From Candidatus Didemnitutus sp. (GTDB lineage Bacteria > Verrucomicrobiota > Verrucomicrobiia > Opitutales > Opitutaceae): 64,000 nt of DNA. Positions 7,854 through 22,612 of the stretch are shown here, piece by piece; position 1 is the stretch's first letter, and each line of letters begins with the position of its first letter. A model generated the notes under the pieces. The model ran no database searches, was not told where the DNA came from, and saw only the letters and a program-made list of their open reading frames with translations. The stretch spans positions 1,240,001 to 1,304,000 of the forward strand of contig JAHCAY010000001.1 in NCBI GenBank assembly GCA_019634575.1, written 5' to 3'. The position numbers and the translations under genes were made by a program.

Positions 7854-10562
7854 GTGAGCATCCCCTCGCCCCAGAGTCACACGCAGGCCGCGACTCCCGC
7901 GCTGGGAGCCGCCGTGTTGGTATTGGACGCGCAAGGAAAGATCGAACTCGCCAACGCCGCCGCCGCCGCACTCTGGCAGGCTCGCGCCGCCGAACTCGCA
8001 GGCGATTTCCTGCCCAACCTCTTCGTCTTCGAAGTCACCTCACGCGACCCCGATCTCGTGCAGGCCCAGTGGGAAGTCGTCTCCGCCGCCGCCCTCGCCC
8101 AACCCGTCACGCTGCGCCTGCAACCCAAGGAAGCCGCCGCCTTCGACGTCATCGTCCGCCTCGAGTCAGCCAGCGCCGATCCCGTGCGTTACTTCGCGAC
8201 CGTGACGCGCCCCGCGCCGTCGCCCGCGGCGCTCGCAACCGCTCCGTCCGGCGCCGCCGGCTCGAGCCATGCCGCACCGGGCGGCGAGAATTTCCTCGCC
8301 GTGCTCGCCGAGCGCAGCGCGCTCGGATTCTTCGATCTCAATTTCGTCAAGAACGAGACCTACCTCGCGCCCGCCTGGAAGCGCATGCTCGGCTACACCG
8401 ACACGAGCCTGCCCAACACCTACGAATCCTGGCTCGCGCTCATCCATCCCGACGACTCCGCCGCCGCGCCCGACAAACTCTCCGGCCGCGCCTCCGCCAC
8501 CGGTTCGCGCCCCTTCTCCGTCGAGTATCGCATGAAACACGCCCGCGGCCACTTCGTCTGGCTGCAGGCGGTCGGCGCACAAGTCTTCGCGCCCAACGGT
8601 TCGCTCCAACGCGTCGTCGGCGCCCAGCTCGACATCACCGACCGCAAAGAAACCGAGGAAGCCTCGCTCCGCGCCGAGGAACGCCTCGCCGGCCTCTCCG
8701 ACCGCGGTCGCATCGCCCTCTTCGAACTCGATTTCACCGGCGGCGCCAGCTGGCTCTCGCCGGCCCTGAAAGCGACGCTCGGCTTCAAGGACGACGAGTT
8801 GCCGGACGAACCCGAGTCGTTCCTCCGCGCCCTCCCACCCGACGACAGCGCCGGCGGACTCGCCGCATTTTTCACCGCCAAGCAACCCGGCGCCCCCGTC
8901 TACTTCGACGCGCTCCGCCTGCGCCACCGCAACGGCACCGATCTCTGGGCCTACGCCGGCATCGTCCGCGTCATCTCGCGCAAGCGCGAACTCCAGCGCG
9001 TGCTCGGCTTCATCGCCCCGATGCCCGAGGGCGTCGGCACCGCCGCCAGTCCGGGCGTTTCACCCGAACACTTCTCCGCGCTGCTCGCCGAGCTGCGCGA
9101 AGGCGTGCTGCTCGTCGACGCGCGCGACCGCATCGTCTTTGCCAACGCCGTCGCCGAGCGCCTCCTCGCCCGCACGGCCGAACAGCTCGTCGGCCAGCCC
9201 GGCAGCGAAGTTTTCCGCCTCGTGCACCGCTTCACCGGCGCTCCCGTCGAAAGCCCGCTCGAAAAGGCGCTCACCACCGGCGAGTCGACCGGGCTCAACG
9301 GCGAGTTCGCGCTCTCGCGCGGCGAGCACGCCCACCCCGCCCCCGTCGTCTTCAGCTGCCGCGCCGTCACCGATGCCGGCGGCCAATCCGCCGGCGCGCT
9401 CGTGGTCTTCCGCAACCCCGACGAAATGAGCCTCACGCCCGAGGAGCTCGTGAAAGCCAACCGCTTCGAAGCGCTCGGCCAGCTCGCCAGCGGCATCGCA
9501 CACGACTACAACAATCTCCTCACGACCATCATGGGCGGCCTGTCGCTCGCGCATGATCAGCAGAACTACTCCGGCCTCGAGACGAGCCTGAAGACCTGCG
9601 AGACCGCGAAGGGCCTCAGCCGCCAGTTGCTCACGTTCGCGCGCGGCGGCACCGGCACCCGCCAAACCATCAAGACCGCCGATCTCCTCGCCGACTCCAA
9701 GCGCATCGCCGCCTCCGGCTCGACCGTCGCCGTCGAGATCAACGCCCCCGCCGACCTCGCCACCATCCAGGTCGACCGCGCGCAACTCCTCCAGGTTTTC
9801 CAAAACCTCATCGTCAACGCGATCCAGGCCATGCCCAACGGCAAGGGCAACATCTGGGTCACCGCCGGCAACGTCACCCTCGCACTGAACCAGGTCCCGC
9901 CGCTCCCCGCCGGCCAATACGTCGCCATCGAGGTCCGCGACAACGGCAGCGGCATCAAGCCCGAGCACCTCGAGAAGATCTTCGATCCGTTCTTCACCAC
10001 CAAGAAGACCGGCACCGGCATCGGCCTCTCCACCGTCGTGAAGATCGTCAAGCACCACGGCGGCCAGCTCACCGTCGACACCGAGCTCGGCGTCGGCACG
10101 GCGTTCACCGTTTTCCTCCCGCGCGCCGAGCAGGAGGAAGTCGTCGAGACCCGCACGCGCCCGTCGCTCAACCGCGCTACACGCACCAATCGCGTCCTCT
10201 TCATGGACGACGACCCCGAGATCAGCCTTCTCACCGAGGGCATGCTCAAAGGCATGGGTTACGGCGTCGACCTCGCGAAAAACGGCGAGGAGGCGATCAA
10301 GCTCTACCGCAGCTACCTCAACATCAACCGTCCGCACGACGTCGTCATCATGGACCTCACGGTCATCGGCGGCATGGGCGGCGAAGAGTGTTTCCGCAAG
10401 CTCCTCGAACTCGACCCGAAGGTCCGCGCCATCGTCGCCAGCGGCTACGACAACGACGAGATGAAGCGCCAGTTCCTCGACCTCGGCTTCTGCGGCTACC
10501 TGACGAAACCCTACCGCGTCGGCGACCTCAGCCGCATCCTCAAGCAGGTGCTGGGATCGTGA
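7854..10562 (+). CDS. Multi-PAS hybrid sensor histidine kinase with C-terminal receiver
   Basis: 902 residues from a GTG start. No signal peptide or membrane helix is visible, so it is a cytoplasmic sensor. In order: about four PAS-like units (about 13-110, 150-275, 280-395, 405-525; the second is a PAS_3 type ending in DITDRKE), a HisKA-type dimerisation helix with the phosphoacceptor in SGIAHDYNNLL (near residue 549), the ATPase domain (N box NLIVNAIQAMP; G boxes EVRDNGSGIKPEHLEKIFDPFF and GTGIGLSTVVKIV) and a receiver domain (about 775-900; DDD, phosphoacceptor in VVIMDLTV, TKPY). It resembles PAS-hybrid kinases of the NtrB-like HDxNNLL group. No partner regulator is next to it; its target is unknown. 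The gene is convergent with the Ehr operon. Confidence 0.93.
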   Translation: MSIPSPQSHTQAATPALGAAVLVLDAQGKIELANAAAAALWQARAAELAGDFLPNLFVFEVTSRDPDLVQAQWEVVSAAALAQPVTLRLQPKEAAAFDVIVRLESASADPVRYFATVTRPAPSPAALATAPSGAAGSSHAAPGGENFLAVLAERSALGFFDLNFVKNETYLAPAWKRMLGYTDTSLPNTYESWLALIHPDDSAAAPDKLSGRASATGSRPFSVEYRMKHARGHFVWLQAVGAQVFAPNGSLQRVVGAQLDITDRKETEEASLRAEERLAGLSDRGRIALFELDFTGGASWLSPALKATLGFKDDELPDEPESFLRALPPDDSAGGLAAFFTAKQPGAPVYFDALRLRHRNGTDLWAYAGIVRVISRKRELQRVLGFIAPMPEGVGTAASPGVSPEHFSALLAELREGVLLVDARDRIVFANAVAERLLARTAEQLVGQPGSEVFRLVHRFTGAPVESPLEKALTTGESTGLNGEFALSRGEHAHPAPVVFSCRAVTDAGGQSAGALVVFRNPDEMSLTPEELVKANRFEALGQLASGIAHDYNNLLTTIMGGLSLAHDQQNYSGLETSLKTCETAKGLSRQLLTFARGGTGTRQTIKTADLLADSKRIAASGSTVAVEINAPADLATIQVDRAQLLQVFQNLIVNAIQAMPNGKGNIWVTAGNVTLALNQVPPLPAGQYVAIEVRDNGSGIKPEHLEKIFDPFFTTKKTGTGIGLSTVVKIVKHHGGQLTVDTELGVGTAFTVFLPRAEQEEVVETRTRPSLNRATRTNRVLFMDDDPEISLLTEGMLKGMGYGVDLAKNGEEAIKLYRSYLNINRPHDVVIMDLTVIGGMGGEECFRKLLELDPKVRAIVASGYDNDEMKRQFLDLGFCGYLTKPYRVGDLSRILKQVLGS

Positions 10563-10666: not shown

Positions 10667-11458
10667 TCAGGTGCGCTTCTCGTCCAGTCGCCCCAGCAGG
10701 CGCAACATCCCGTCCAAGATCGTGAGCGGGTGCGGCGGACAGCCGGGGATGTAGAGGTCGACCGGCACGACCGACTCCGCTCCGTGCAGGTGCTCGGGAT
10801 TGCCGATAAAGGGCCCGCCGGAAATCGCGCAGGCGCCGACGGCGATGACGAGCTTCGGCTCGGGCACCGCCTCCCAGGTCTTGCGCAGCGCCAGCTCCAT
10901 GCCGCGCGAAACGGGACCGGTGATGAGCAACCCGTCCGCATGGCGCGGCGAGGCGACGAACTGGATGCCGAACCGCCCGAGATCCCAGCCGATGGTGTTG
11001 AGCACGTTCGTGTCGGCCTCGCAGGCGTTGCAGCCGCCCGCACTCACCTGCCGCAACCGCAGCGAGCGGCCGAAGAGTTTCCGCAGTTTCTCGTCGAGCG
11101 CCGCGGCGAGCCGCACCTGCTCCGCGCCGGGCGCCCCGAGCACGAGATCCTCGCGCCGCCGCGCCGCCAGGCGGTGATCGTTCGTGGGCACAATCGCGGC
11201 CGGAGCACACGCCGTCACGCACGCCGCGCAGAAGATGCAGCGGCCGAGGTCGAGCGCCATCGGCTGGCCGGCCGCGCGTGAGATCGCGTCCGTCGGGCAC
11301 ACCGCGGCGCATTCCGCGCAGCCGTCCATGCATTTCGCCGCATCAACGCGCAGCGCCCCGCCATGCCGATCCGGCAGCGCCGGCGCCGGGCCGTCCGGAT
11401 ACGCCATCGTTTCGCAACCGCGCTTCAGGCGATGAGTGAAGATGTTGAAGGCGGGCAT
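10667..11458 (-). CDS. Ehr/group 4 hydrogenase small subunit (NuoB/HyfI-like) fused to 2[4Fe-4S] ferredoxin
   Basis: 263 residues. The N-terminal part (about 35-115) has two iron-sulfur cysteine sets: C-x3-C-x2-C-x3-CP (with one extra residue) and C-x2-C-x2-C-x3-C, as in HyfH/HycF-type ferredoxin subunits. The rest is NuoB/HyfI-like and keeps all four cysteines of the N2-type cluster: SAGGCNACE, GACAISGG and PGCPPHP. So a separate ferredoxin subunit is fused here onto the small subunit. It is the last gene of the operon, 4 bases after the large subunit gene. Role: electron entry from ferredoxin or a similar donor and transfer toward the large subunit at the cytoplasmic face. Confidence 0.9.
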   Translation of the reverse strand: MPAFNIFTHRLKRGCETMAYPDGPAPALPDRHGGALRVDAAKCMDGCAECAAVCPTDAISRAAGQPMALDLGRCIFCAACVTACAPAAIVPTNDHRLAARRREDLVLGAPGAEQVRLAAALDEKLRKLFGRSLRLRQVSAGGCNACEADTNVLNTIGWDLGRFGIQFVASPRHADGLLITGPVSRGMELALRKTWEAVPEPKLVIAVGACAISGGPFIGNPEHLHGAESVVPVDLYIPGCPPHPLTILDGMLRLLGRLDEKRT

Positions 11459-11462
11459 GGCG

Positions 11463-12944
11463 TCAGAGGTCGAAGCCGCAATACGACAGGTTGAAGCTCT
11501 TGTTGCAGATCGGAAAATCCGAGATCGCCTGCCCGCGCAGCGCGAGCGCGAGACCGGTCCAGTTGTGGAACGACGGATCGACGATCTTGTAGCGGCGGAA
11601 CCGCCCTGCGGCGTCCGTCAGCGCGACGTGGCAGACCTCGCCGCGCCAGCCTTCGACGAGCGCCACCGCCAGCGTGTCTGCGGCGGGCGGCGCGACCTCG
11701 CCATGCGGTTCGCCCTCCGGCGGGATCGCAAGCTGCTCGAGGAGATATTGCCCCGACCGCTGGATCTCCAGCCAGCGCACGCGCGCACGCGCCAGCACGT
11801 CGCCGCCCGGCCAGACCGCGACCGGAATCTGCGCGAAGCGGTGCCAGCCGGCCGGATGATCGAAGCGCACGTCGCGCACGATGCCGCACGCGCGCGCCGC
11901 GAGGCCCACGAGGCCGACTTCGGTCGCCTGCACCGTCGAGACCCCGCCGACGTTCTCGAAACGCGCGCGCGCCGACGAGGCGTCCCAGAGCCACGTCGCC
12001 GCCTGCTCGACCTCCGCCAGCGCCGCCGTGAGCAGCGTGCGCATCTTCTCGAGGCGCGCCGCCTCGAGATCGAACGCGCAGCCGCCCGACCGCACGAGGC
12101 GCCGGCCGAAGCGATTGCCGCACAGCAGCGCGGTGAGGTTGAGGAAGTCGCCGCGGATCTTTCCGCACGCCGAGGCCGTGGGCAGGAACGCCACGTCGTT
12201 GGCCAGCGCGCCGAGGTCGCCGGTGTGGTTGGCCAGGCGCTCGAGCTCGAGCGCGAGGGCGCGCAGCCATTGCGCGCGCAGCGGTGCCTCCGTGCCGCCC
12301 AGCGCCTCGAGCAGCGTCGCATAAGCCGTCGCATGGCCGATCGTCGTGTCGCCCGCGACCGCTTCGAGCTGGTGCACCGTCGCGCGATGCGGCCCGCCCG
12401 GCAGGGTGGCCTCGACGCCGCGGTGCTGGTAGCCGAGCGCGATCTCGAGATGGATGACCTCCTCGCCGGCGCACTGGAAACGGAAATGCCCCGGTTCGAT
12501 CACGCCCGCATGCACCGGACCGACGGCGACCTCGTGAACCTCGCTGCCGCCCACGCGGAAAAACTCGCCGTTCGCCGGCGCATCGCCCGCCGTGCGCCGC
12601 ACTGGCTTGAGCCAGGGGTGTCCCTCCGGGACGAGGCCGTGCTGCTCCCACACCTCGCGTTCGAACAGGTGCGCCTGCGCGTGCAGCGGCGTCAGCGCCG
12701 GATAACCGCCCGCGACCGCCGTGCTGCGGCCCACCGCGAGGATGTTGTCCGCATCGAACGCCAGCACCGCCACCAGCCGCGTGCCCGCGTCCTCCGGCAC
12801 GCCGAACCAGGCCACGAGCCGCGCGCCGCGCGCGAGTTCGCCGGCGGTCAGGCGCACGAATTCCCCGACCGGCCACTCCGGCACCGCCGTCCACGAGAGC
12901 GCCGCGGCGTTGGCCAGCAGGGTGAATGGCGTTTGCGAGCTCAT
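11463..12944 (-). CDS. Ehr complex large subunit (NuoCD/HyfG-like) without Ni-Fe ligands
   Basis: 493 residues: a NuoC-like N-terminal domain (about 1-120; FEREVWEQHGL) fused to a NuoD/HycE-like domain, the arrangement of group 4 hydrogenase large subunits. The two cysteine pairs that hold Ni-Fe are missing. Where hydrogenases have C-G-I-C before GxxHSTAY, this protein reads EAVAGDTTIGHATAY; where they end with DPCxxC it reads DPSFHNW. The only late cysteines (PICNKSF, SYCGFDL) are in other positions. Hence no H2 chemistry is expected; the protein should work as in energy-converting hydrogenase-related complexes, whose substrate is not settled. ATG 12944 overlaps the previous stop codon (ATGA). 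Confidence 0.9.
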   Translation of the reverse strand: MSSQTPFTLLANAAALSWTAVPEWPVGEFVRLTAGELARGARLVAWFGVPEDAGTRLVAVLAFDADNILAVGRSTAVAGGYPALTPLHAQAHLFEREVWEQHGLVPEGHPWLKPVRRTAGDAPANGEFFRVGGSEVHEVAVGPVHAGVIEPGHFRFQCAGEEVIHLEIALGYQHRGVEATLPGGPHRATVHQLEAVAGDTTIGHATAYATLLEALGGTEAPLRAQWLRALALELERLANHTGDLGALANDVAFLPTASACGKIRGDFLNLTALLCGNRFGRRLVRSGGCAFDLEAARLEKMRTLLTAALAEVEQAATWLWDASSARARFENVGGVSTVQATEVGLVGLAARACGIVRDVRFDHPAGWHRFAQIPVAVWPGGDVLARARVRWLEIQRSGQYLLEQLAIPPEGEPHGEVAPPAADTLAVALVEGWRGEVCHVALTDAAGRFRRYKIVDPSFHNWTGLALALRGQAISDFPICNKSFNLSYCGFDL

Positions 12945-14383
12945 GGCGAAGGGAAAAGCAGTGCGACCGCCGCGTCCCACGACTCGCGCAGCACGTCCGG
13001 CGTCGCGAGGCCGAGCCACAGCGAGCAGCCGAGCAGCAGCAGCGGCGGCAGGATCAGCCCGGCGGTCTCGCGGAAACGACGGCTGCCCGCCCGCGCCGCC
13101 ACCCGCGGCCGGCCGTCGACGATGCCGAACACGACCCGCGTCAGTCCGAAGAAGGCGAAAAGCAGGCCCGCGAGGAAAACCGCCGCCACGCCGACGCGAT
13201 CGGCGGCGAACGCGGTGCGCACGATCAGCAGTTCGCTGAAGAACGGCCCGAACGGCGGGCACGCCGTGACCGCGAAGAGGCCGGCAACGAAGATCGCGGC
13301 GGACTGCGGGGTCAGCGCCGCCATGCCGCGCACCTCGTCCATCGTGCTCGCGCCGGCCGCCCGCCGGATGTTGCCGGCGCTGAGGAAGAGCGCGCCCTTG
13401 GTCAGGCCGTTGTTCCAGACGTGAAACACCGCCGCCCACACGCCCACGCGCCCGAGCCCGGCCGCGACCGCGAGGATGCCCATGTGCTCCACGCTCGAGT
13501 AGGCGAGCATGCGCTTGAAATCGCGCGTCCCGAGGAGGAAGAGCGCCGCCACGATCAGCGAGAAGAGCCCGATCGCGAGCAGCGTGCGGTCCGCCACCGC
13601 CCCCGCGCCCGCCGCCGCCACGACGGCGCGCACGCGCAGGATCGCCGTGAACGCCACCGTCGTGACGCCGCCCGCCAGCATGGCACCGACGATGCCGGAC
13701 GCCTCGCCGTAGGCGTCGGGCTTCCACGTGTGCATCGGCGCGAGGCCCATCTTCGTGCCGTAGCCGGCGAGCAGTAGCACCCACGCCGCCAGCACCCAGG
13801 GCCGCGAGAGCCCCGCACCTTGCGCCGTCAGCGCGGAGAAAGTCAGGTCGCCGCCGCCGCCCGTGTGCAGCGATGCGTAGCCGAGGCAGAACGATCCGAG
13901 CAGCGAGAGCGCGATGCCGGTGCCGCCGACCAGCAGGTATTTCCACGTCGCCTCGAAGGCGCGCGGCGTGGCGTTGAAGTGCAGCAGCGGCACGGCCGCG
14001 AGCGTGAGTCCTTCGGTCGCGATCCAGAGCACGCCGAGATGCCGCGCCTGGTGCGCCGCGCTCATCAGGCCGAGCATCGCCAGCATCAACGCCACGAACG
14101 TCCGGTTCGGCCGCTCCGCGCGCACGCGCAGGTAGGATACGCCGTAGAACGCGCAGAGCAGGAACAGCAGCGACACCATCGGGAGCAGCGCCCGCGCGAG
14201 CGGGTCGAACGCCAGCCACGCTCCGTCCGCCATCGGCGGTGGCGCGACCAGCAGCCAGAGCGACAGCGCCGCGTGGGCGACGCCGACGACGGGCAGCAGC
14301 CACGGCCGCGTGCGGTCACTTGGCCACACGGCGGCGGCGAGCGCTCCGGCGAAGGGCACAAGGATGAGGAGCAGCGCTTTCAT
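12941..14383 (-). CDS. Ehr complex membrane subunit, HyfF/NuoN-M-like antiporter family
   Basis: 480 residues and about 13-14 membrane helices, with the proton-conducting antiporter-type pattern: conserved Glu in WIATEGLTL, Lys in the KMGLAPMHTWKPDAYGEA segment, and the discontinuous-helix region FHVWNNGLTKGALFL. It matches HyfF (hydrogenase 4 subunit F) in length and in the Trp-Lys-Pro-Asp motif. Start ATG 14383 overlaps the HyfE-like stop by 4 bp. Role: ion translocation coupled to the electron transfer of the peripheral subunits. Confidence 0.9.
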   Translation of the reverse strand: MKALLLILVPFAGALAAAVWPSDRTRPWLLPVVGVAHAALSLWLLVAPPPMADGAWLAFDPLARALLPMVSLLFLLCAFYGVSYLRVRAERPNRTFVALMLAMLGLMSAAHQARHLGVLWIATEGLTLAAVPLLHFNATPRAFEATWKYLLVGGTGIALSLLGSFCLGYASLHTGGGGDLTFSALTAQGAGLSRPWVLAAWVLLLAGYGTKMGLAPMHTWKPDAYGEASGIVGAMLAGGVTTVAFTAILRVRAVVAAAGAGAVADRTLLAIGLFSLIVAALFLLGTRDFKRMLAYSSVEHMGILAVAAGLGRVGVWAAVFHVWNNGLTKGALFLSAGNIRRAAGASTMDEVRGMAALTPQSAAIFVAGLFAVTACPPFGPFFSELLIVRTAFAADRVGVAAVFLAGLLFAFFGLTRVVFGIVDGRPRVAARAGSRRFRETAGLILPPLLLLGCSLWLGLATPDVLRESWDAAVALLFPSP

Positions 14384-15021
14384 TCCCGCAGCACGGTGAG
14401 CTTGCGCGTGTCGAGCGAGTCGAACGCGCGCTGGATGCGATCCACGATGATGCCGATCACGAACACGCCGACTGTCAGGTCGAGCAGGATGCCCGCCTCG
14501 ACCAGCAGCGGCGTGGAGTGGATCAGGAGCAGGCCGAAAAGGTAGATGCCGTTCTCGAGGATCAGGTAGCCGCAGACCTGCGAGATCGCCTTCGCCCGCC
14601 CGATCAGCAGCACGAAGCCCGTCAGCACCGACGCGAGCGATCCGGGCACGAGCAGCGTGCCCGCGTGTTCCGGCAGCAGCGGCAGCGCGCGTGCGAGCGC
14701 CACCGCCGCGATCGTGCCGCCCGCGCCCAGCAGCAGCGAGGGCACGAAGCCGATGAACGGCTCGCGCTCACGGTCGATGTTGGCCGTCCGCAACGCGCGC
14801 GTCAGCAAATTCGGAATCACGAAGCCCTTCACGGAAATCGTTGCGAGCGCCACGAGCGTCACGAGCCAGTTGAAATGCTCCATGAGCAGCGGCATCACGC
14901 CGAGCACGACGCCTTGCACGGCCATCGCGCGGATCACGGCATGCAACCGGCCGCTGCCGAGCGCGAGGAGGTTCAGGCCCATCGCGACGCCGACGAGGAG
15001 GTTGAGCGCGCCGTTGTTCAA
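14380..15021 (-). CDS. Ehr complex small membrane subunit, HyfE-like (NuoK-related)
   Basis: 213 residues, close to the length of E. coli HyfE (about 216). The start is a TTG at 15021 inside a TTGA overlap with the preceding HyfC-like stop; this matches the 4-bp overlaps of the rest of the operon and no ATG exists near the family start. About seven membrane helices; the C-terminal part has the conserved ENGIYLFGLLL helix with a buried Glu, related to NuoK. An acidic-basic loop (RTANIDREREPF) lies in the middle. Confidence 0.88.
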   Translation of the reverse strand: MNNGALNLLVGVAMGLNLLALGSGRLHAVIRAMAVQGVVLGVMPLLMEHFNWLVTLVALATISVKGFVIPNLLTRALRTANIDREREPFIGFVPSLLLGAGGTIAAVALARALPLLPEHAGTLLVPGSLASVLTGFVLLIGRAKAISQVCGYLILENGIYLFGLLLIHSTPLLVEAGILLDLTVGVFVIGIIVDRIQRAFDSLDTRKLTVLRE

Positions 15022-15926
15022 ACCGCGCCTCCCTTCCACGCCGCGAGCAGCGCGAACAGGCAGAGCAAAAACGCCGTCGTGAGCAGCAGCGGCACCCGCT
15101 TGAACGCCAGCCGCGCCATGAACGACTCGGCGAGCCCCACGCCGACCGTCACGACCAGCACGCCCGCGGCGAGCGCGCCCGCCGCCGCCGCCGGCGCCAG
15201 CCGCCCGAGCGGCAACACCGCCTCGCAGAGCAGCAAGGCGAAGAGCAGGAGCTTCATCGACGCGCCATGAAGGATGGCCGCCAGCGGCGGACCGCTGTGG
15301 TCGAGCACCATCACCTCGTGCACCATCGTCAGTTCGAGGTGCGTGTTCGGATCGTCGAACGGCACGCGGCAGTTTTCCGCCAGCAGCACGATGAACAAGC
15401 CCGCCGCCAGCAGCGCCGCGCCCGCACCCGCCGCCGGCGCAAGCATCGTCGTGAGCGTCACGCTGCCCGTGAGCACGCTGAGCGAGAGCACCGCGGTCAT
15501 CACCGCCGCCTCCGCGAGCACGGCGTAACTCACCTCGCGCGCCGCGCCCATGCCCTCGAACGCCGAGCCCGTTTCCAGCGCCGCCCACGCCGTGCAGAAG
15601 CGCGCGACCGCGAGCAGGTAGACCAGCAGCAGGACGTCGCCGCGGAAGCTCAGGGCGCCGCCGGCCGGTCCGAGCGGCAGCAGCATCGCCGCACCCAGAA
15701 TCGCCACCCAGCCGACCGCCGGTCCCGCCACGAAGCCGGGCGAAGCCAGCGTGCTCAGCACGACCCCTTTGCGCCACAGGCGCGCGAGGTCGTAGTAGAG
15801 CTGCAGCACCGGCGGCCCGCGCCGGCCCGCGACCCACGCCTTCACCTTGTTGATGATGCCGGGCAGCAGCGGGGCGAGCACGAGCCAGCCCGCCAAACGC
15901 AGGAAAATTTCCAGGATCAGCATCAT
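15018..15926 (-). CDS. Ehr complex membrane anchor, HyfC/NuoH-like
   Basis: 302 residues with about eight membrane helices. It has NuoH/HyfC hallmarks: GIINKVKAWVAGRRGPPVLQLYYDL near the N-terminus (the RxGPP loop that contacts the peripheral arm) and LLAENCRVPFDDPNTHLELTMVHEVM in the middle (the conserved acidic loop). ATG 15926 overlaps the stop of the second HyfB-like gene by 4 bp. Role: links the soluble redox part to the ion-pumping subunits. Confidence 0.92.
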   Translation of the reverse strand: MMLILEIFLRLAGWLVLAPLLPGIINKVKAWVAGRRGPPVLQLYYDLARLWRKGVVLSTLASPGFVAGPAVGWVAILGAAMLLPLGPAGGALSFRGDVLLLVYLLAVARFCTAWAALETGSAFEGMGAAREVSYAVLAEAAVMTAVLSLSVLTGSVTLTTMLAPAAGAGAALLAAGLFIVLLAENCRVPFDDPNTHLELTMVHEVMVLDHSGPPLAAILHGASMKLLLFALLLCEAVLPLGRLAPAAAAGALAAGVLVVTVGVGLAESFMARLAFKRVPLLLTTAFLLCLFALLAAWKGGAV

Positions 15927-17884
15927 CGCGCACCTCCGACCAGCACCAGCAGGCCCAGCGCGACCACGCCGCCGAGCAGATAGAGAATGTAGGATTGCAG
16001 ATGTCCGTGCTGTAACCGCCGCACCGCCGTCGATACGCGCAGGATCGCCTCGCTTGCCGGTCCGATCACGTGCTCGAGCACGGTTTCCGGCACGCGCTCG
16101 ACGCGCCGCGCCGCGCCGGGAAACGTCCCGCGTGGCTTCAAACTTTTTCGCTCCATTCGCAAGACCCAGAAGAACCAGCCCGCCGCGATCCCCGCGAACG
16201 AGCCGCTCGTGTATTGCATGCGCGCCGTCGGCGCGGCGTAGCCGCAATCCCACGTCAGGCCGCGCCGCAACCCGTTGCCGAGCGCTCGGCGCCACAGCCA
16301 CGCCGCCGCGACGACGAACAGCGCAGCGAGCGCCGCGTTGACCGCGCCGAGCGTGAAAAGGGGCACCGGTGCCGCCGGCGCACCCCACGCGGGATTCCAC
16401 GCGCCCGCCGCCCGCGCCACCGCCGGGAACAACGCGCCCGGCGCGAGCGCCACGATCACGCAACCCGCCGCGAGCACGACCATCGATCCGAGCATCCACG
16501 GCCCGCTCTCGTGCGCGTGCTCCGCCGCCGGAGAGCGCGGCGCGCCCGAGAAGATCATCGCGCCGGCCTTGACGAACGTCGCCAGCGCCAGCGCGCCCGA
16601 TACCGCGAGAAAGATGATCGCGGGCACGGCCGCGCCCGCCGCGGCGCCGCGCCCCGTCGCCGACTCGAACAAACCCAGATAAACGAGCCATTCGCTCACG
16701 AAGCCGTTCAGCGGCGGCAGGCCCGAGATCGCGGCCGCACCGAGGGCGAACAGTCCCGCCGTCCACGGCATCGGCCGCCACAGCCCGCCGAGCCGGCTCA
16801 TCTCCCGCGTCCCCGTCGCGTGCAGCACCGAGCCCGCGCCGAAAAACAGCAGCGACTTGAACAACCCGTGGTTCCACACGTGCAGCAGCGCGCCCGCGAG
16901 CACGAGCCGGCCCCACGGCGCATCGCCCTGCCCGGCCGCGACGAGCGCGAAGCCGAGGCCGACCGCGATGATGCCGACGTTCTCAACCGAGCAGTAGGCG
17001 AGCAGGCGCTTGGAGTCGTTTTGCGCGAGGGAGAACGCCACCCCGAGCAGTGCGCTCACCGCCCCCAGCCCGGCGAGCGTCCAACCCAGGCCCGTCGGCA
17101 CCGGCAGCCAGCCGCTGAAGCGCATGAGACCGTAGACGCCGATCTTCAACGCCACGCCCGAGAGCATCGCCGACACATGGCTCGGCGCGCTCGCATGCGC
17201 CGACGGCAGCCAGACATGCAGCGGAAACAAACCCGCTTTCAGCCCGAAGCCGAACAGCGCCAACCAGAGCAGCGGCGCGAGCTCCGCGTCCCGCGCGCCT
17301 CCCGTCCGCATCGGCCCGAGTTCCCAGCTCCCGGTGCGCGAGGCGAGCAGCGCGAAAAAGGCGAACAGCGCCAGCGTCGCGGCATGCGACGACGCGAGGT
17401 AAAGCCAGCCAGCCGCGCGCACCTCGGGCCGCTGCTTGTCGAGCAGGATGAGGAAAAACGCGCACACCGCGAACAGCTCCCAGGCGATCAGAAAATGCAG
17501 CCCGTTCGACAGCACGAGCACGAGCGCCAGGCTGAGCACGAGCCCGCTCCACCACAGCCGGCCGCGCGCGCCGATCGTGCGCTGTTCCTCGCCGCTCCAG
17601 TAGCCGTGCGCGTAGGCCGCGCCCGCGCCGCCGATCACCGCCAGCAGCACCAGGAAGAACGCGCTCAGCCCGTCGAGGCGCAGATGCACCGGCTCACCCG
17701 CCAGCGGGAAGGCACTGCGCCACTCCCAGTCGGCCCCGCCCGCAAGCACCGTCGCCGCCGCCAGCGCCGCCGCCGCCGAGCCCGCGAGCATCAGGCCCAC
17801 CCACAGACGCGGCCAGCGCGGGCCGGTGAGAACGCCCGTCGCGAGGCCCAGCAGGGCGACGGGCAGCAGCATTCCCGCCGTCAT
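15923..17884 (-). CDS. Ehr complex HyfB-like (NuoL-type) antiporter subunit, copy 2
   Basis: 653 residues. The first 500 residues are a NuoL/MrpA-type antiporter module with ELFAVCAFF, FGFGLKAGLFPLHVWLPSAHASAPSHVSA and LLHVWNHGLFKSLLFFGAGS; the C-terminal part carries the HyfB/HycC signature WDCGYAAPTARMQYTSGSFAGI. ATG 17884 overlaps the stop codon of the EIIA gene (ATGA). It is a close paralogue of the gene at 18653-20617: same length and long identical stretches around GTREMSRLGGLWR and LPPLNGFVSEWLVYLGLF. Two HyfB-like pumps in one complex would give more ion translocation per electron pair, as an inference. Confidence 0.92.
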   Translation of the reverse strand: MTAGMLLPVALLGLATGVLTGPRWPRLWVGLMLAGSAAAALAAATVLAGGADWEWRSAFPLAGEPVHLRLDGLSAFFLVLLAVIGGAGAAYAHGYWSGEEQRTIGARGRLWWSGLVLSLALVLVLSNGLHFLIAWELFAVCAFFLILLDKQRPEVRAAGWLYLASSHAATLALFAFFALLASRTGSWELGPMRTGGARDAELAPLLWLALFGFGLKAGLFPLHVWLPSAHASAPSHVSAMLSGVALKIGVYGLMRFSGWLPVPTGLGWTLAGLGAVSALLGVAFSLAQNDSKRLLAYCSVENVGIIAVGLGFALVAAGQGDAPWGRLVLAGALLHVWNHGLFKSLLFFGAGSVLHATGTREMSRLGGLWRPMPWTAGLFALGAAAISGLPPLNGFVSEWLVYLGLFESATGRGAAAGAAVPAIIFLAVSGALALATFVKAGAMIFSGAPRSPAAEHAHESGPWMLGSMVVLAAGCVIVALAPGALFPAVARAAGAWNPAWGAPAAPVPLFTLGAVNAALAALFVVAAAWLWRRALGNGLRRGLTWDCGYAAPTARMQYTSGSFAGIAAGWFFWVLRMERKSLKPRGTFPGAARRVERVPETVLEHVIGPASEAILRVSTAVRRLQHGHLQSYILYLLGGVVALGLLVLVGGAR

Positions 17885-18573
17885 GCGCCCCCCTCTGTGC
17901 CCGCGGGCACCGCGTCGGCCGTGGCGGCGAGGATCTCCTCGTTGCTCGCGCCGCGTTCGATCAGCCCGCGCAGCGGGCCGCGCGAGATCAGCCGGCTCAA
18001 CCGCGCCAGCAGGTCGAGATGCGCCCGCGCCGACGGCGCGATGAAAAACACCAGCCGCGTCACCGGCACGTCGTCCGCCTTCGGTTCGTCGAACACCAGC
18101 GGATCGCGCAGCAGCAGGAGCGCCACGATGCCCGAGTCGCGCCCGAGCGCGATGCGCGTGGTCGGATGCGGCACGGCATAGCCATGACCGGTCGGGGCGA
18201 TCGTCAGGCCGCCCTTCGCCCGCAGGCGTTGCGCGAGCATCTGCCGCACCGGCGGCGTCGCCCCGGGCAGTGCAGCCACGACGCGATCGATCACGTCCGG
18301 GACTCCGGCGGCGGCCACGTCGCGCCAGATGCCGCCGGCGCGCAGCAACGTTTCGAGCTTCCAGCCGCCCGCGACGGTCGGATGCATCGGGGCGAGGAAA
18401 CCCGCCTGCGCCGCCAGCCCGCGCGACGCGGCCCACGCGGCGACCTGCGCGCGATCGAAAAGCAGACGCCCCCGGTCCTCGGTGTGGGGCAACCCCTCGG
18501 CGCGGACCCAGTCCTCCACCACCTTTTCCGCCACCCCGAACGATTCGGCAATCTGGACGAGGTTTAGATACAT
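17881..18573 (-). CDS. Helix-turn-helix / PTS EIIA fusion protein inside the Ehr operon
   Basis: 230 residues. The start at 18573 (MYLNLVQIAESFGVAE) gives an N-terminal excisionase/MerR-like helix-turn-helix of about 55 residues (LVQIAESFGVAEKVVEDWVRAEGLP, then a wing and DRAQVAAWAASRGL). From about 75 to the end it looks like a PTS fructose/nitrogen-type EIIA domain with the phosphorylatable histidine in GYAVPHPTTRI (His136). No EIIB or EIIC is near, so it is regulatory and not a sugar transporter. It sits between two HyfB-like subunit genes, 79 bases after the first and overlapping the second by 4 bp, so it is made with the complex. Likely job: adjusting activity or expression of the complex in answer to PTS phosphorylation state. 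This is inferred from position only. Confidence 0.85.
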   Translation of the reverse strand: MYLNLVQIAESFGVAEKVVEDWVRAEGLPHTEDRGRLLFDRAQVAAWAASRGLAAQAGFLAPMHPTVAGGWKLETLLRAGGIWRDVAAAGVPDVIDRVVAALPGATPPVRQMLAQRLRAKGGLTIAPTGHGYAVPHPTTRIALGRDSGIVALLLLRDPLVFDEPKADDVPVTRLVFFIAPSARAHLDLLARLSRLISRGPLRGLIERGASNEEILAATADAVPAGTEGGA

Positions 18574-18652
18574 GGCTGGGAAAAACGTATGGCGGCGAAA
18601 CGCGCCGAGCGCACGCCCGATCTTACGCCGAGCCCGCCGGTTCGCTCCGCAT

Positions 18653-20617
18653 TCATTGCCCACCTCCACTCACGACCAGCGCCGCGAGCGCCGCGACGCC
18701 GATCAGGAGATAGAGTAGATACGCCTGCAACCGGCCGTGCTGGAGCCGACGCGCCGACGCCGACACGCGCATCACCACGCCGCCCGCCGGCTCGACCACG
18801 TGTTCGAGCACCGTTTCGGGCGTGTGCTCGGAGCACTCCGCCGCGCGCGGCAGCACGACCTCGGGGCGCGCTCCGTGCCGCACCGGCCGGAGAATCCACT
18901 CGAACCACTCGACGACGATCCCCGCGAAAGAGCCCGCGGTGTATTGCATGCGCGCCGTCGGCGCCGCGTAGCCGCAATCCCACGTCACCGCCCGCCGCGC
19001 GCCGTTCCGCCCCACCTGCCGCCGCAGCATCCACACCACGGCGAGCGCCGCGACCACGAGCCCGGCGTGACAGGCGCCGACGAGCGCGAGCGACGGCGGC
19101 GGCGCGAGATCGTTCCAGGCGGGGTTCCACTCCCCCGCCGCGCGGGCCACCGCCGGCCAGAACAACACCGGCGCCACGCCGATCGCGACACAGGCCGCCG
19201 CGAGCAACAGCATCGGGCCGCGCATCCACGGCCCACATTCGTGCGCGCGCTCCGCCGCCGCGGAACGCGGCGCACCGAGAAATACGACTCCGCACACCTT
19301 GATGAAGCACGCGAGCGCCAGCGCGCCGGTCATCGCCAGCAGCACGACCGCCGGGATCGAGGCGAGCGCGGTGTTGTCGCGCGTGCCGACGGCGTCAAAC
19401 AGCCCGAGATAAACGAGCCACTCGCTCACGAAGCCGTTCAGGGGCGGCAGGCCCGAAATCGCCGCCGCGCCGAGGGCAAACAGCCCCGCCGTCCATGGCA
19501 TCGCCCTCCACAGTCCGCCGAGCCGGCTCATCTCCCGCGTCCCCGTCGCATGCAACACCGAGCCGGCGCCGAAAAACAGCAGCGATTTGAACAGTCCGTG
19601 GTTCCACACGTGCAGCAACCCGCCCGCCAGCGCCAGCCGGCCCCACGCGGTGTTGCCCTGCTGCGCCGCCACGAGCGCAAAGCCCAGCCCGATGAGGATG
19701 ATGCCGATGTTCTCGACGCTGTGATAGGCGAGCAGGCGTTTCAGGTCGTGTTGCCCGAGCGCGAAGGCCACGCCGAGCACCGCGCTCGCCACGCCGAGCA
19801 CCGCCACGACCCAGCCCGCGCTCGCCGGCACCGGCAGCCAGCCGCTGAAGCGCACGAGTCCGTAGATGCCGAGCTTGATGGTCACGCCCGAGAGCACCGC
19901 CGAAACGTGGCTCGGCGCATTCGCGTGCGCCGAGGGCAGCCAGATGTGCAGCGGAAACAGGCCGGCCTTCAGTCCGAAGCCGAACAACGCGAGCCAGAAC
20001 AGCGGCGCGAGTTCCGCGGGCGGCCGGCCCGCGGCAAGCCGCGGCCCGAGTTCCCAGCTCCCCGTGCGCGCCGCGAGGAGCGCGAAGAACGCGAACAGCG
20101 CCAGCACCGCCGCGTGCGACGCACCGAGATAAAGCCAGCCCGCCGCGCGCACCTCCGCCCGCCGCCGATCGAGCGTCACGAGGAAAAACGCCGCGAGCGT
20201 GAACAGTTCCCAACCGATGAGAAACTGCAGCCCGTGGGCCGACACGAGCACGGCAACGAGACTCACGAGCAGCAGGCTCCACCATACTCGTCCGCGTCGC
20301 GCCGAGAGCGGATGCGCGCACTGCGGCCAGTAGCCGTGCGCGTAGGCCGCACCGGCACCGCCGACCACCGCCACCAGCGCAAGAAACAACGCGCTCACCG
20401 CGTCGAAGCGCAGGCACAGCACGTCGCCCGCGACGAGGAACTCGCTGCGCCACGTCCACGCCGGTGCGAAACCGCCGAGGACGCCGACCGCCGCCGCCAG
20501 CGCGAGCGCGCAACCGCCGAGCGTCAGCGCGAGCCAGGTGCGCGGCAGCCAATTCCCGACCATCAGTCCGGCCATGAGGCCGACGACCGCCGCGCCGAGC
20601 ACCGCACCTGAGCTCAT
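18653..20617 (-). CDS. Ehr complex HyfB-like (NuoL-type) antiporter subunit, copy 1
   Basis: 654 residues, first gene of the operon. About 14-16 membrane helices. Antiporter-module residues are present (ELFTLAAFF; GLKAGLFPLHIWLPSAHANAPSH; LLHVWNHGLFKSLLFF), and the C-terminal extension has WDCGYAAPTARMQYTAGSFAGI as in HyfB/HycC. Paralogue of 15923-17884. The ATG at 20617 is the first good start; a promoter should lie in the 112 bases to the SulP gene, but I see no strong one. Confidence 0.92.
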   Translation of the reverse strand: MSSGAVLGAAVVGLMAGLMVGNWLPRTWLALTLGGCALALAAAVGVLGGFAPAWTWRSEFLVAGDVLCLRFDAVSALFLALVAVVGGAGAAYAHGYWPQCAHPLSARRGRVWWSLLLVSLVAVLVSAHGLQFLIGWELFTLAAFFLVTLDRRRAEVRAAGWLYLGASHAAVLALFAFFALLAARTGSWELGPRLAAGRPPAELAPLFWLALFGFGLKAGLFPLHIWLPSAHANAPSHVSAVLSGVTIKLGIYGLVRFSGWLPVPASAGWVVAVLGVASAVLGVAFALGQHDLKRLLAYHSVENIGIILIGLGFALVAAQQGNTAWGRLALAGGLLHVWNHGLFKSLLFFGAGSVLHATGTREMSRLGGLWRAMPWTAGLFALGAAAISGLPPLNGFVSEWLVYLGLFDAVGTRDNTALASIPAVVLLAMTGALALACFIKVCGVVFLGAPRSAAAERAHECGPWMRGPMLLLAAACVAIGVAPVLFWPAVARAAGEWNPAWNDLAPPPSLALVGACHAGLVVAALAVVWMLRRQVGRNGARRAVTWDCGYAAPTARMQYTAGSFAGIVVEWFEWILRPVRHGARPEVVLPRAAECSEHTPETVLEHVVEPAGGVVMRVSASARRLQHGRLQAYLLYLLIGVAALAALVVSGGGQ

Positions 20618-20729: not shown

Positions 20730-22544
20730 TCAGGCCTGTGACTTCGGCGTGCTGCCGAGGATGCGGTTCGCGCGTTCCAGCGCCTGGGCGATCTCCTGCC
20801 GTGCGGAAGCGAGCTGTTCTTTTTCCGCGCGCAACGCTTCGGCCGAATCCGGCGGACTCGCCGGCGGCGGCAGGCCGAGGATTTCGCGCGCCCGCGCGAG
20901 CGCGGCGTCGATGTGCGGGCAGACGTTCTCGCGGCCGAGTCGGTCGAGGAAGCCGGCTTTCTCCATCACGAAGAGCGGCTGCGTGTGCGGCGCGCTCAGG
21001 ACGAGATGCTTCCCCTTCGCCCGGAGCTTCGCATGCAAGTCCTCGAGCGCCTGCAGGCCGGTCGCGTCCATGGCGAGGACCTTGCGGATGCGCAGGATCA
21101 GGACGTCCGGCTCGTGCTTCGCGCGCTTCAGCTCATCGTCGAGCTTGTCCACGACGCCGAAGAAGAACGCGCCGAACACGCGGAAGACCAGCACGCCCTC
21201 GGGGATTTCCTTGCCGACGAGCGAGTGATGCGAGCCCTCGGTGTCGGAGCTCTCATCGACCGCGGTGATCTGCGACGTCTCGGAAATGCGCTTCACCATC
21301 AGCAGCGCGGCGAGCACGACGCCCACCTCGACGGCGACGGTCAGGTCGGCGAAAATCGTGAGCGCGAACGTCGTGATGAACACCAGGGCGTCGCTCAGCG
21401 GCCAGCGCCCGAGCCGCAGCAGCTGTTTCCACGCGACCATGCGGAACGCCGCGACGACGAGGATCGCACTGAGGGTGGCGAGCGGGATGTGCACCGCCAG
21501 CGGCGCCGCCGCCACCAGCACGAGCGCGAGCAGCCCCGAGTGCACGAGCCCCGCGACCGGGGTGCGCGCGCCGGCGCGGACGTTGCCGATCGAGCGCGCG
21601 ACGGCACCCGTGACCGGGATCGCGCCGAAGAGCGGACCGACGAAGTTCGCCACCCCCTGCCCGATCAGCTCCTGGTTCGAGTCGTGCCGGTCGTCCAGCA
21701 TGCCATCGGTGACGACCGCGCAGAGCAGCGCCTGCATCGAGACCAGCAGCGCGATCGTGAACGCCGGCTGCACCAACGCGCGCAGCGTGCTCACCTCCGC
21801 GTGCGGAAGGTGAAAGGTCGGCCAGGTCGCGCCGAAGCCGCCGAATTGCGAGCCGATGGTCGCGAGATGCCATTTTTCAGCGAGCCCGAACGCCGCCACG
21901 ACGACCGTCGCCACGAGCAGGCCGACCATGGAGCCGGGCACATAGCGCCCGAGCCGCGAGGGCCACGAGGCGATGACGAGCAGAGACACGACGGCGAAAC
22001 CGACCGTCGGCCAGTGGATCGCGTCGAGGTGCTCGCCGAGCACCTGCATCTTGCCCGCGAAGTCGACCGGGAGCTTGTCGACCTGCAGACCGAGGAAATT
22101 CTTGATCTGGGAACTGAGGATGAGGATCGCGATGCCCTTGGTGAACGCACGCGAGACCGGATACGGGATGAAGCGGATCACCGAGCCAAGCCGGGCGAAG
22201 CCCATGACGCAGAGCATCACGCCGGCGATCATCGTGCACAGGACCAGACCGTCGACGCCGTATTGCGCCACGACGCCGTAGGTGATGACCACGAACGCAC
22301 CGGTCGGTCCGCCGATTTGCACGCGCGAGCCGCCGAGCGCCGCGATGATCGCGCCGCCGATGATCGCCGTGAACAGGCCCTGCTCGGGCTTCACACCCGA
22401 GGCGATCGCGAACGCGATCGAGAGCGGAAACGCCATCACCATGACGTTCAACCCCGCCATGAAGTCGCCGCGCAACCGCTCGGGCGAGTAGCCTTTCAGC
22501 GCGTCGAACAGCCGGGGACGAAAACTGAAAACGGGAGTGCTCAT
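20730..22544 (-). CDS. SulP family anion transporter with STAS domain
   Basis: 604 residues from ATG 22544 (MSTPVFSFRPRLFDAL). A SulP core of about 12-14 membrane helices (MVMAFPLSIAFAIASGVKPEQGLFTAIIGG; GGPTGAFVVITYGVVAQYG; NQELIGQGVANFVGPLFGAIPVTGAVARSIGNVRAG) is followed by a STAS domain (about 440-550; VLVFRVFGAFFFGVVDKL, LAMDATGLQALEDLH) and a charged helical tail. SulP proteins carry sulfate, bicarbonate or dicarboxylates; the substrate cannot be read off. A TauE/SafE-type permease gene is close (23365) but on a separate unit. Confidence 0.92.
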   Translation of the reverse strand: MSTPVFSFRPRLFDALKGYSPERLRGDFMAGLNVMVMAFPLSIAFAIASGVKPEQGLFTAIIGGAIIAALGGSRVQIGGPTGAFVVITYGVVAQYGVDGLVLCTMIAGVMLCVMGFARLGSVIRFIPYPVSRAFTKGIAILILSSQIKNFLGLQVDKLPVDFAGKMQVLGEHLDAIHWPTVGFAVVSLLVIASWPSRLGRYVPGSMVGLLVATVVVAAFGLAEKWHLATIGSQFGGFGATWPTFHLPHAEVSTLRALVQPAFTIALLVSMQALLCAVVTDGMLDDRHDSNQELIGQGVANFVGPLFGAIPVTGAVARSIGNVRAGARTPVAGLVHSGLLALVLVAAAPLAVHIPLATLSAILVVAAFRMVAWKQLLRLGRWPLSDALVFITTFALTIFADLTVAVEVGVVLAALLMVKRISETSQITAVDESSDTEGSHHSLVGKEIPEGVLVFRVFGAFFFGVVDKLDDELKRAKHEPDVLILRIRKVLAMDATGLQALEDLHAKLRAKGKHLVLSAPHTQPLFVMEKAGFLDRLGRENVCPHIDAALARAREILGLPPPASPPDSAEALRAEKEQLASARQEIAQALERANRILGSTPKSQA

Positions 22545-22612
22545 GCACACGTGGATCGAGTCCGGCGATTGCGAGCCTCCATCCTCCGCCACACAAGCCG
22601 ACCGTGAGACAA

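Follow-up and report, generated by a model that had tools for sequence, protein, structure and literature searches.

An Ehr-type complex with a conserved pocket in place of the Ni-Fe site, and relatives that have lost the proximal cluster ligands

The window, the whole stretch of 64,000 nucleotides that was analysed, carries a complete Ehr-type complex at 10667-20617 on the minus strand (two HyfB-like subunits, HyfD/NuoH-like, HyfE-like, and HyfF-like subunits, a large subunit (LS), and a small subunit (SS)), which is an intact member of an already known kind. Ten relatives keep the LS pocket and the pump without the proximal [4Fe-4S] ligands of SS, and electron delivery to the pocket is therefore not essential in every member of the family. 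These relatives challenge the reading of the Ehr family as redox pumps, and make the assumed mechanism directly testable; redox chemistry is the usual thread in accounts of complex I evolution, and an Ehr-lineage pump running without the final cluster would change those accounts. Ehr is found in many lineages, among them Geobacter, Nitrospira, and ammonia-oxidising archaea. In published descriptions the Ni-Fe ligands are absent and the function is unknown (PMC6349859, PMC10284858, PMC12342949, PMC7894505, PMC8691401, PMC10432482, PMC7304191), and the literature only suspects that ion transport is coupled to a redox reaction in the cytoplasm.

The host genome is 5.25 Mb, with nearest matches to Opitutia/Opitutaceae-type Verrucomicrobiota. 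The genes are transcribed in the order SulP, HyfB1, HTH+EIIA, HyfB2, HyfD/NuoH-like, HyfE-like, HyfF-like, LS, SS. Residues were numbered from the ATG at 12944 for LS, and from 11458 for SS. The features are listed by coordinate:

10667..11458, minus strand: SS, NuoB/HyfI-like, with an N-terminal 2[4Fe-4S] domain (Pfam Oxidored_q6 and Fer4_10; best PDB match HycG, 7z0s; ligand census).
10739..11032, minus strand: SS region with proximal [4Fe-4S] ligands C143, C146, C210, and C240 (alignment to HycG cysteines).
11189..11350, minus strand: fused 2[4Fe-4S] ferredoxin domain of SS, residues 37-90, with C43, C47, C50, C54, C74, C77, C80, and C84 (Pfam Fer4_10; conservation).
11463..12944, minus strand: LS, 493 aa, NuoC/NuoD-like and HycE-like, without Ni-Fe ligands (Pfam Complex1_49kDa and Complex1_30kDa; HycE best match; AF2 and Foldseek).
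11475..11486, minus strand: LS C-terminal motif SYCG, replacing CYSC (alignments); LS stops four codons later.
12345..12356, minus strand: LS L1 motif AGDT, replacing CGIC (alignments).
12941..14383, minus strand: HyfF-like antiporter-type subunit (Pfam Proton_antipo_M; NCBIfam hydrogenase 4 subunit F, below cut-off; pump residues).
14380..15021, minus strand: HyfE-like membrane subunit (NCBIfam hydrogenase 4 membrane subunit, below cut-off); its TTG start overlaps the upstream stop.
15018..15926, minus strand: HyfD/NuoH-like membrane anchor (Pfam NADHdh; conserved acidic residues).
15923..17884, minus strand: HyfB-like antiporter-type subunit, copy 2 (NCBIfam hydrogenase 4 subunit B, 518 bits, below cut-off; pump residues).
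17881..18573, minus strand: HTH_17 and PTS_EIIA_2 protein (Pfam), phospho-His H136 kept, translationally coupled to HyfB2.
18653..20617, minus strand: HyfB-like antiporter-type subunit, copy 1 (NCBIfam hydrogenase 4 subunit B, 521 bits, below cut-off; pump residues).
20730..22592, minus strand: SulP-family transporter (Pfam Sulfate_transp and STAS), upstream of HyfB1 in the same direction.

From the EIIA gene through LS, successive genes overlap by ATGA or TTGA, and SS starts 4 nt past LS, as read at the junctions. The membrane genes found with Pfam and NCBIfam (HyfB twice, and the HyfD/NuoH-, HyfE-, and HyfF-like genes) agree with the claim of the preliminary description that every membrane part is present, and no NADH-oxidising NuoE/F/G was found among the operon ORFs. 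In the neighbourhoods of relatives, only some dozen of the most closely related operons retain the SulP gene that lies just ahead of HyfB1. Just past SS, a convergent plus-strand gene at 7854-10562 encodes a 902 aa product whose sequence resembles PAS, histidine-kinase, and receiver domains; a gene related to this PAS histidine kinase adjoins Ehr in about ten loci, and apart from it no consistently encoded donor or acceptor gene was found near Ehr across the loci.

At least 568 relatives were confirmed, and the 80 loci that were kept span Verrucomicrobiota, Planctomycetota, Myxococcota, Thermodesulfobacteriota (including Geobacter and Desulfomicrobium), Acidobacteriota, Elusimicrobiota, and Binatota. 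Within Verrucomicrobiota, Ehr was detected in 80 of 289 genomes (E 1e-60), with a patchy distribution even inside the family and genus of the window. An LS tree taking in 14 NuoD, HycE, and HyfG sequences (a quick tree with long branches) placed all Ehr in a single clade (SH-aLRT 100), sister to HycE/HyfG and apart from hydrogenases and complex I, with Geobacter sp. MAG L082 as its sole representative of the Geobacter and Nitrospira reference Ehr; the type of the window (Ehr-A) forms one clade (support 99). Gene content, this tree, and published Ehr descriptions uphold the assignment to Ehr made in the preliminary description.

The Geobacter sulfurreducens Ehr (GSU0739-0745), for which the subunit names EhrA, EhrC, EhrL, and EhrS are in use (PMC7894505), has the same subunit set, gene order, and loss of Ni-Fe ligands as the window, and the LS of MAG L082, encoded in an operon of the order PTS-B-B-D-E-F-LS, is 57% identical to that of the window. 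Compared with Geobacter Ehr, HTH-EIIA of the window lies between the HyfB genes instead of first, and SulP lies upstream. In L082, about 3 kb of other sequence (11488-14417) separates the LS and SS genes. E. coli formate hydrogenlyase and hydrogenase-4 (HycE, HyfG; 7z0s) share with the window a fused NuoC-NuoD LS and HyfB/D/E/F-like membrane parts, whereas the window is without the Ni-Fe cysteines and the cleaved tail, has its HyfH-like part fused to SS, and, in our comparison list, has no HyfA, HyfD, or FdhF by its operon.

LS was aligned to HycE by pairwise phmmer against 7z0s, and MAFFT gave the same result. HycE CGIC corresponds to AGDT in LS (A197-T200), with Cys changed to Ala and Thr, and DPCYSC corresponds to NLSYCG (S487, C489, G490), with Cys changed to Ser and Gly; all four Ni-Fe cysteines are thus missing, as had been claimed. 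At C3, LS has Ser, and at C4, Gly, with C489 matching the HycE Ser between C3 and C4. The alignment register is fixed, with no slack, because the C-terminus of a sister Ehr group, SYSGTDR followed by a stop, matches CYSCTDR of HycE/HyfG, which is followed by a cleaved tail. A Ni-Fe site built from the C-terminal cysteines near PICNKSF and SYCGFDL, named beforehand as the alignment that would overturn the assignment, is excluded by this register, since C489 (SYCG) lies one residue before C4, and C480 (PICNKSF) seven before C3. LS terminates at the equivalent of HycE R537, without a C-terminal maturation tail. We take this position to be the HycE cleavage site (HycI processing), and because the LS end coincides with the HycE cut, no maturation step is expected.

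All 156 Ehr-A and Ehr-B sequences have Ser at C3, Gly at C4, the proton-gate Glu (E150), and Arg434, and 154 have Asp199. The Nqo4 quinone ligands Tyr87 and His38 are Gly198 and Ile149 in LS, and Gly/Ile in essentially all Ehr. Within the pocket loops, whose borders were set by hand, 45 of 77 columns were conserved at 95%, compared with 67 of 287 in the remaining domain (p 1e-8), and conservation so far above that of the rest of the domain points to a specific, conserved site in the pocket rather than to decay. An AF2 model of LS has a confident fold (pLDDT 89, pTM 0.90), with HycE as its best solved match (Foldseek, TM 0.87). Six LS cysteines (C158, C260, C275, C438, C480, C489) are near-invariant in 81 closer relatives, and C158, C480, and C489 occur together in 150 of the 163 sequences, including some with as little as about 41% identity; divergent Ehr types are without these three. 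A single three- or six-Cys metal site in LS is unsupported, since C260, C275, and C438 are missing in distant members, and C158, C480, and C489 are each lost singly in some relatives.

SS of the window has all 12 Fe-S cysteines, namely the four proximal ligands, with hydrogenase-like CNAC spacing, and the eight cysteines of the ferredoxin domain. The alignment to HycG bears out that SS keeps its four cluster cysteines; the fused 2[4Fe-4S] part, described earlier as a gain, is present, but the ferredoxin cluster II cysteines occur in 155/163 Ehr loci, and the fused domain is an ordinary family-wide trait with nothing special to the window. All proximal ligands are retained in 146/163 Ehr loci.

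The ten relatives in which the proximal cluster is lost read, at the four ligand positions, DADW (L017), DDGW (L018), CACW (L024), DACW (L025), NDCW (L028), DVCW (L035), CESW (L042), SEEW (L046 and L119), and DACS (L077, Planctomycetota). L009, which has a frameshift, was excluded, and SS was assigned by gene order in L020, L112, and L119 (nested copies). All ten retain the eight ferredoxin cysteines and LS C158, C480, and C489. In a tree built from LS and SS without the ligand columns, nine of them form one clade and L077 stands separately, giving two losses, each forced by strongly supported branches. Assembly error was rejected (nine separate assemblies, including one closed single-contig genome), as was general decay, since the ten keep 39-41 of the 41 near-invariant SS residues outside the ligands. 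When the nine were compared with 56 close relatives, near-invariant columns had changed in 0/222 positions of LS, 0/123 of the NuoH-like subunit, and 8/118 of SS, four of the eight being the ligands. Trp240 and V178 are fixed in SS of the nine-member clade, the other changed positions drifting, and it looks as if the Trp fills the space of the lost cluster. A second Ehr, of B type, is present in two of the ten genomes, and the other eight have a single Ehr; no convincing candidate for a replacement Fe-S protein was found at the cluster-free loci.

With the proximal ligands gone, the usual electron route to the LS pocket is closed in these ten relatives. Their conservation pattern suggests that selection keeps the pocket and the pump even where the usual electron path would be impossible. 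Close relatives with the proximal cluster as almost their sole difference amount to a natural experiment on whether electrons must arrive at the pocket for Ehr to work. No earlier description of the cluster-free clade was found in the literature searched, the founding Ehr papers (Coppi 2005, Marreiros 2013) lying outside its scope.

On the membrane side, the charged residues of the pump are kept across relatives (148-177 sequences per subunit): E137, K217, K293, and K344 in HyfB; E124, K148, K211, K290, and K329 in HyfF; and E139, E184, E198, and E267 in the NuoH-like subunit. Three antiporter-like subunits are encoded in the window, the same number as in complex I. The earlier claim of a working ion pump draws indirect support from the retention of these residues in about 150 relatives, together with the extra conservation of the pocket loops.

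The HTH and PTS-EIIA gene, which the preliminary description had missed, sits inside the operon between the two HyfB copies. Its GxAxPH phospho-acceptor motif is retained, along with a second His, in 60/60 relatives from several phyla, and HPr is encoded in the host genome. EIIA and Ehr are linked in 49/49 loci at an LS identity of at least 65%, 33/46 at 50-65%, 4/29 at 40-50%, and 1/6 of B type. On the simplest reading, HTH-EIIA would regulate either the operon or the pump, and its linkage opens a first way, through regulation, to learn when Ehr is in use; this link, too, was absent from the literature searched, with the same two founding papers outside its scope.

Since the Fe-S chain of the window is full, a ferredoxin-fed pump is its best reading, and we put the chance that the complex is a membrane-bound Ehr-type ion pump, similar to complex I and driven by ferredoxin, with an acceptor to be named, at close to even. 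Low-potential electrons, from reduced ferredoxin or a similar donor, would enter the 2[4Fe-4S] domain fused to SS and pass to the proximal [4Fe-4S] cluster, for which the ligands are observed. At the former Ni-Fe pocket they would reduce a small acceptor, which, to judge from the ligands, would be something other than a proton at Ni-Fe or a quinone bound as in complex I. The beta1-beta2 loop and the NuoH-like subunit would relay the resulting change to the three antiporter-like subunits, which, given their residues, may move protons or sodium. HTH-EIIA, made with the pump, would report the PTS phosphorylation state and adjust expression or activity. A precedent is MBS (Pyrococcus, PDB 6u8y), in which the Ni-Fe site was likewise dismantled and the ion pump kept, and which pumps with ferredoxin as donor (PMC7684303); MBS, however, has two of four Ni-Fe cysteines and an open proximal cluster with three Cys ligands, whereas the window has none of the four cysteines and all four ligands. 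The proposal in the preliminary description that an unknown redox pair drives the complex suits the intact chain of the window, and conflicts with the ten relatives that are missing proximal ligands.

These cluster-less relatives make a non-redox or sensor reading a serious rival, which we consider unlikely but of real weight: Ehr would be driven by ligand binding or another non-redox step coupled to ion flow, instead of by electron transfer to the LS pocket, and its Fe-S clusters would sense or gate. At least two losses of the proximal ligands in an otherwise almost unchanged complex, mostly in genomes without another Ehr and without a replacement Fe-S protein nearby, argue for it, and the conserved EIIA link suggests metabolic gating. 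In DAB2 (DabA-DabB), a complex-I-related machine with a NuoL-like subunit, ion flow is coupled to CO2 hydration, a non-redox task (PMC13144422), whereas the window has a full complex-I-like core; partnership with DabA itself was rejected, as no match to DabA (PF10070) was found in the host genome. Against a non-redox Ehr, the great majority of Ehr, including the window, retain all proximal ligands, and the cluster-less clade may have changed function, hold another metal, or use an unseen electron path. That the pocket is non-redox and ligand-coupled, with the Fe-S chain an optional sensor or gate, the cluster discarded by several lineages with the pump working, and HTH-EIIA as the tie to the PTS, is likewise unlikely.

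A ferredoxin:quinone oxidoreductase pump, in effect a short complex I, would explain an architecture closest to complex I, with NuoB/C/D/H-like parts and three antiporter-like subunits, and the two share a homologous core, the loss of all Ni-Fe cysteines, and the absence of a C-terminal extension. It is nonetheless improbable, since the window has neither the NADH module nor the quinone Tyr/His, its LS falls with hydrogenases in a clade separate from NuoD, and the host genome already has two NuoD-type complexes. A formate-linked Ehr, fed by or feeding a formate dehydrogenase, would fit the greater abundance of Ehr in the proteome of formate-grown Geobacter (PMC7894505) and the FDH-Ehr connection proposed for Margulisbacteria and Saganbacteria (PMC6349859); with no formate dehydrogenase gene found within or adjoining the operon, or conserved among the loci of relatives, it is very improbable here. 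Geobacter Ehr has been treated as non-functional for want of Ni-Fe ligands (PMC13194489), but a decayed relic is hard to reconcile with intact, overlapping frames and with a pocket and pump strongly conserved across phyla, and a true hydrogenase with displaced cysteines is opposed by the absence of any Ni-Fe ligand or maturation extension, and by hydrogenase-type genes elsewhere in the genome; either is scarcely credible.

True hydrogenases appear to exist elsewhere in the host genome, where HypD and a strong NiFe-hydrogenase large-subunit match lie at C4:182252-190500, and a second, weaker NiFe-type large-subunit match at C1:1382114-1383352.

A second, divergent B-type Ehr set was observed nested within the A-type operon (L119, L020, L112) or in tandem to it (L041, L045, L064), as if both complexes were made together. 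At L112:9568-10050 and L102:1878-2324, SS is 178-181 aa long, without the ferredoxin domain, and has one of the four proximal ligands (T, C, D, D); these short proteins are apparently Fe-S-free partners of a second complex, and both genomes also hold a complex with clusters.
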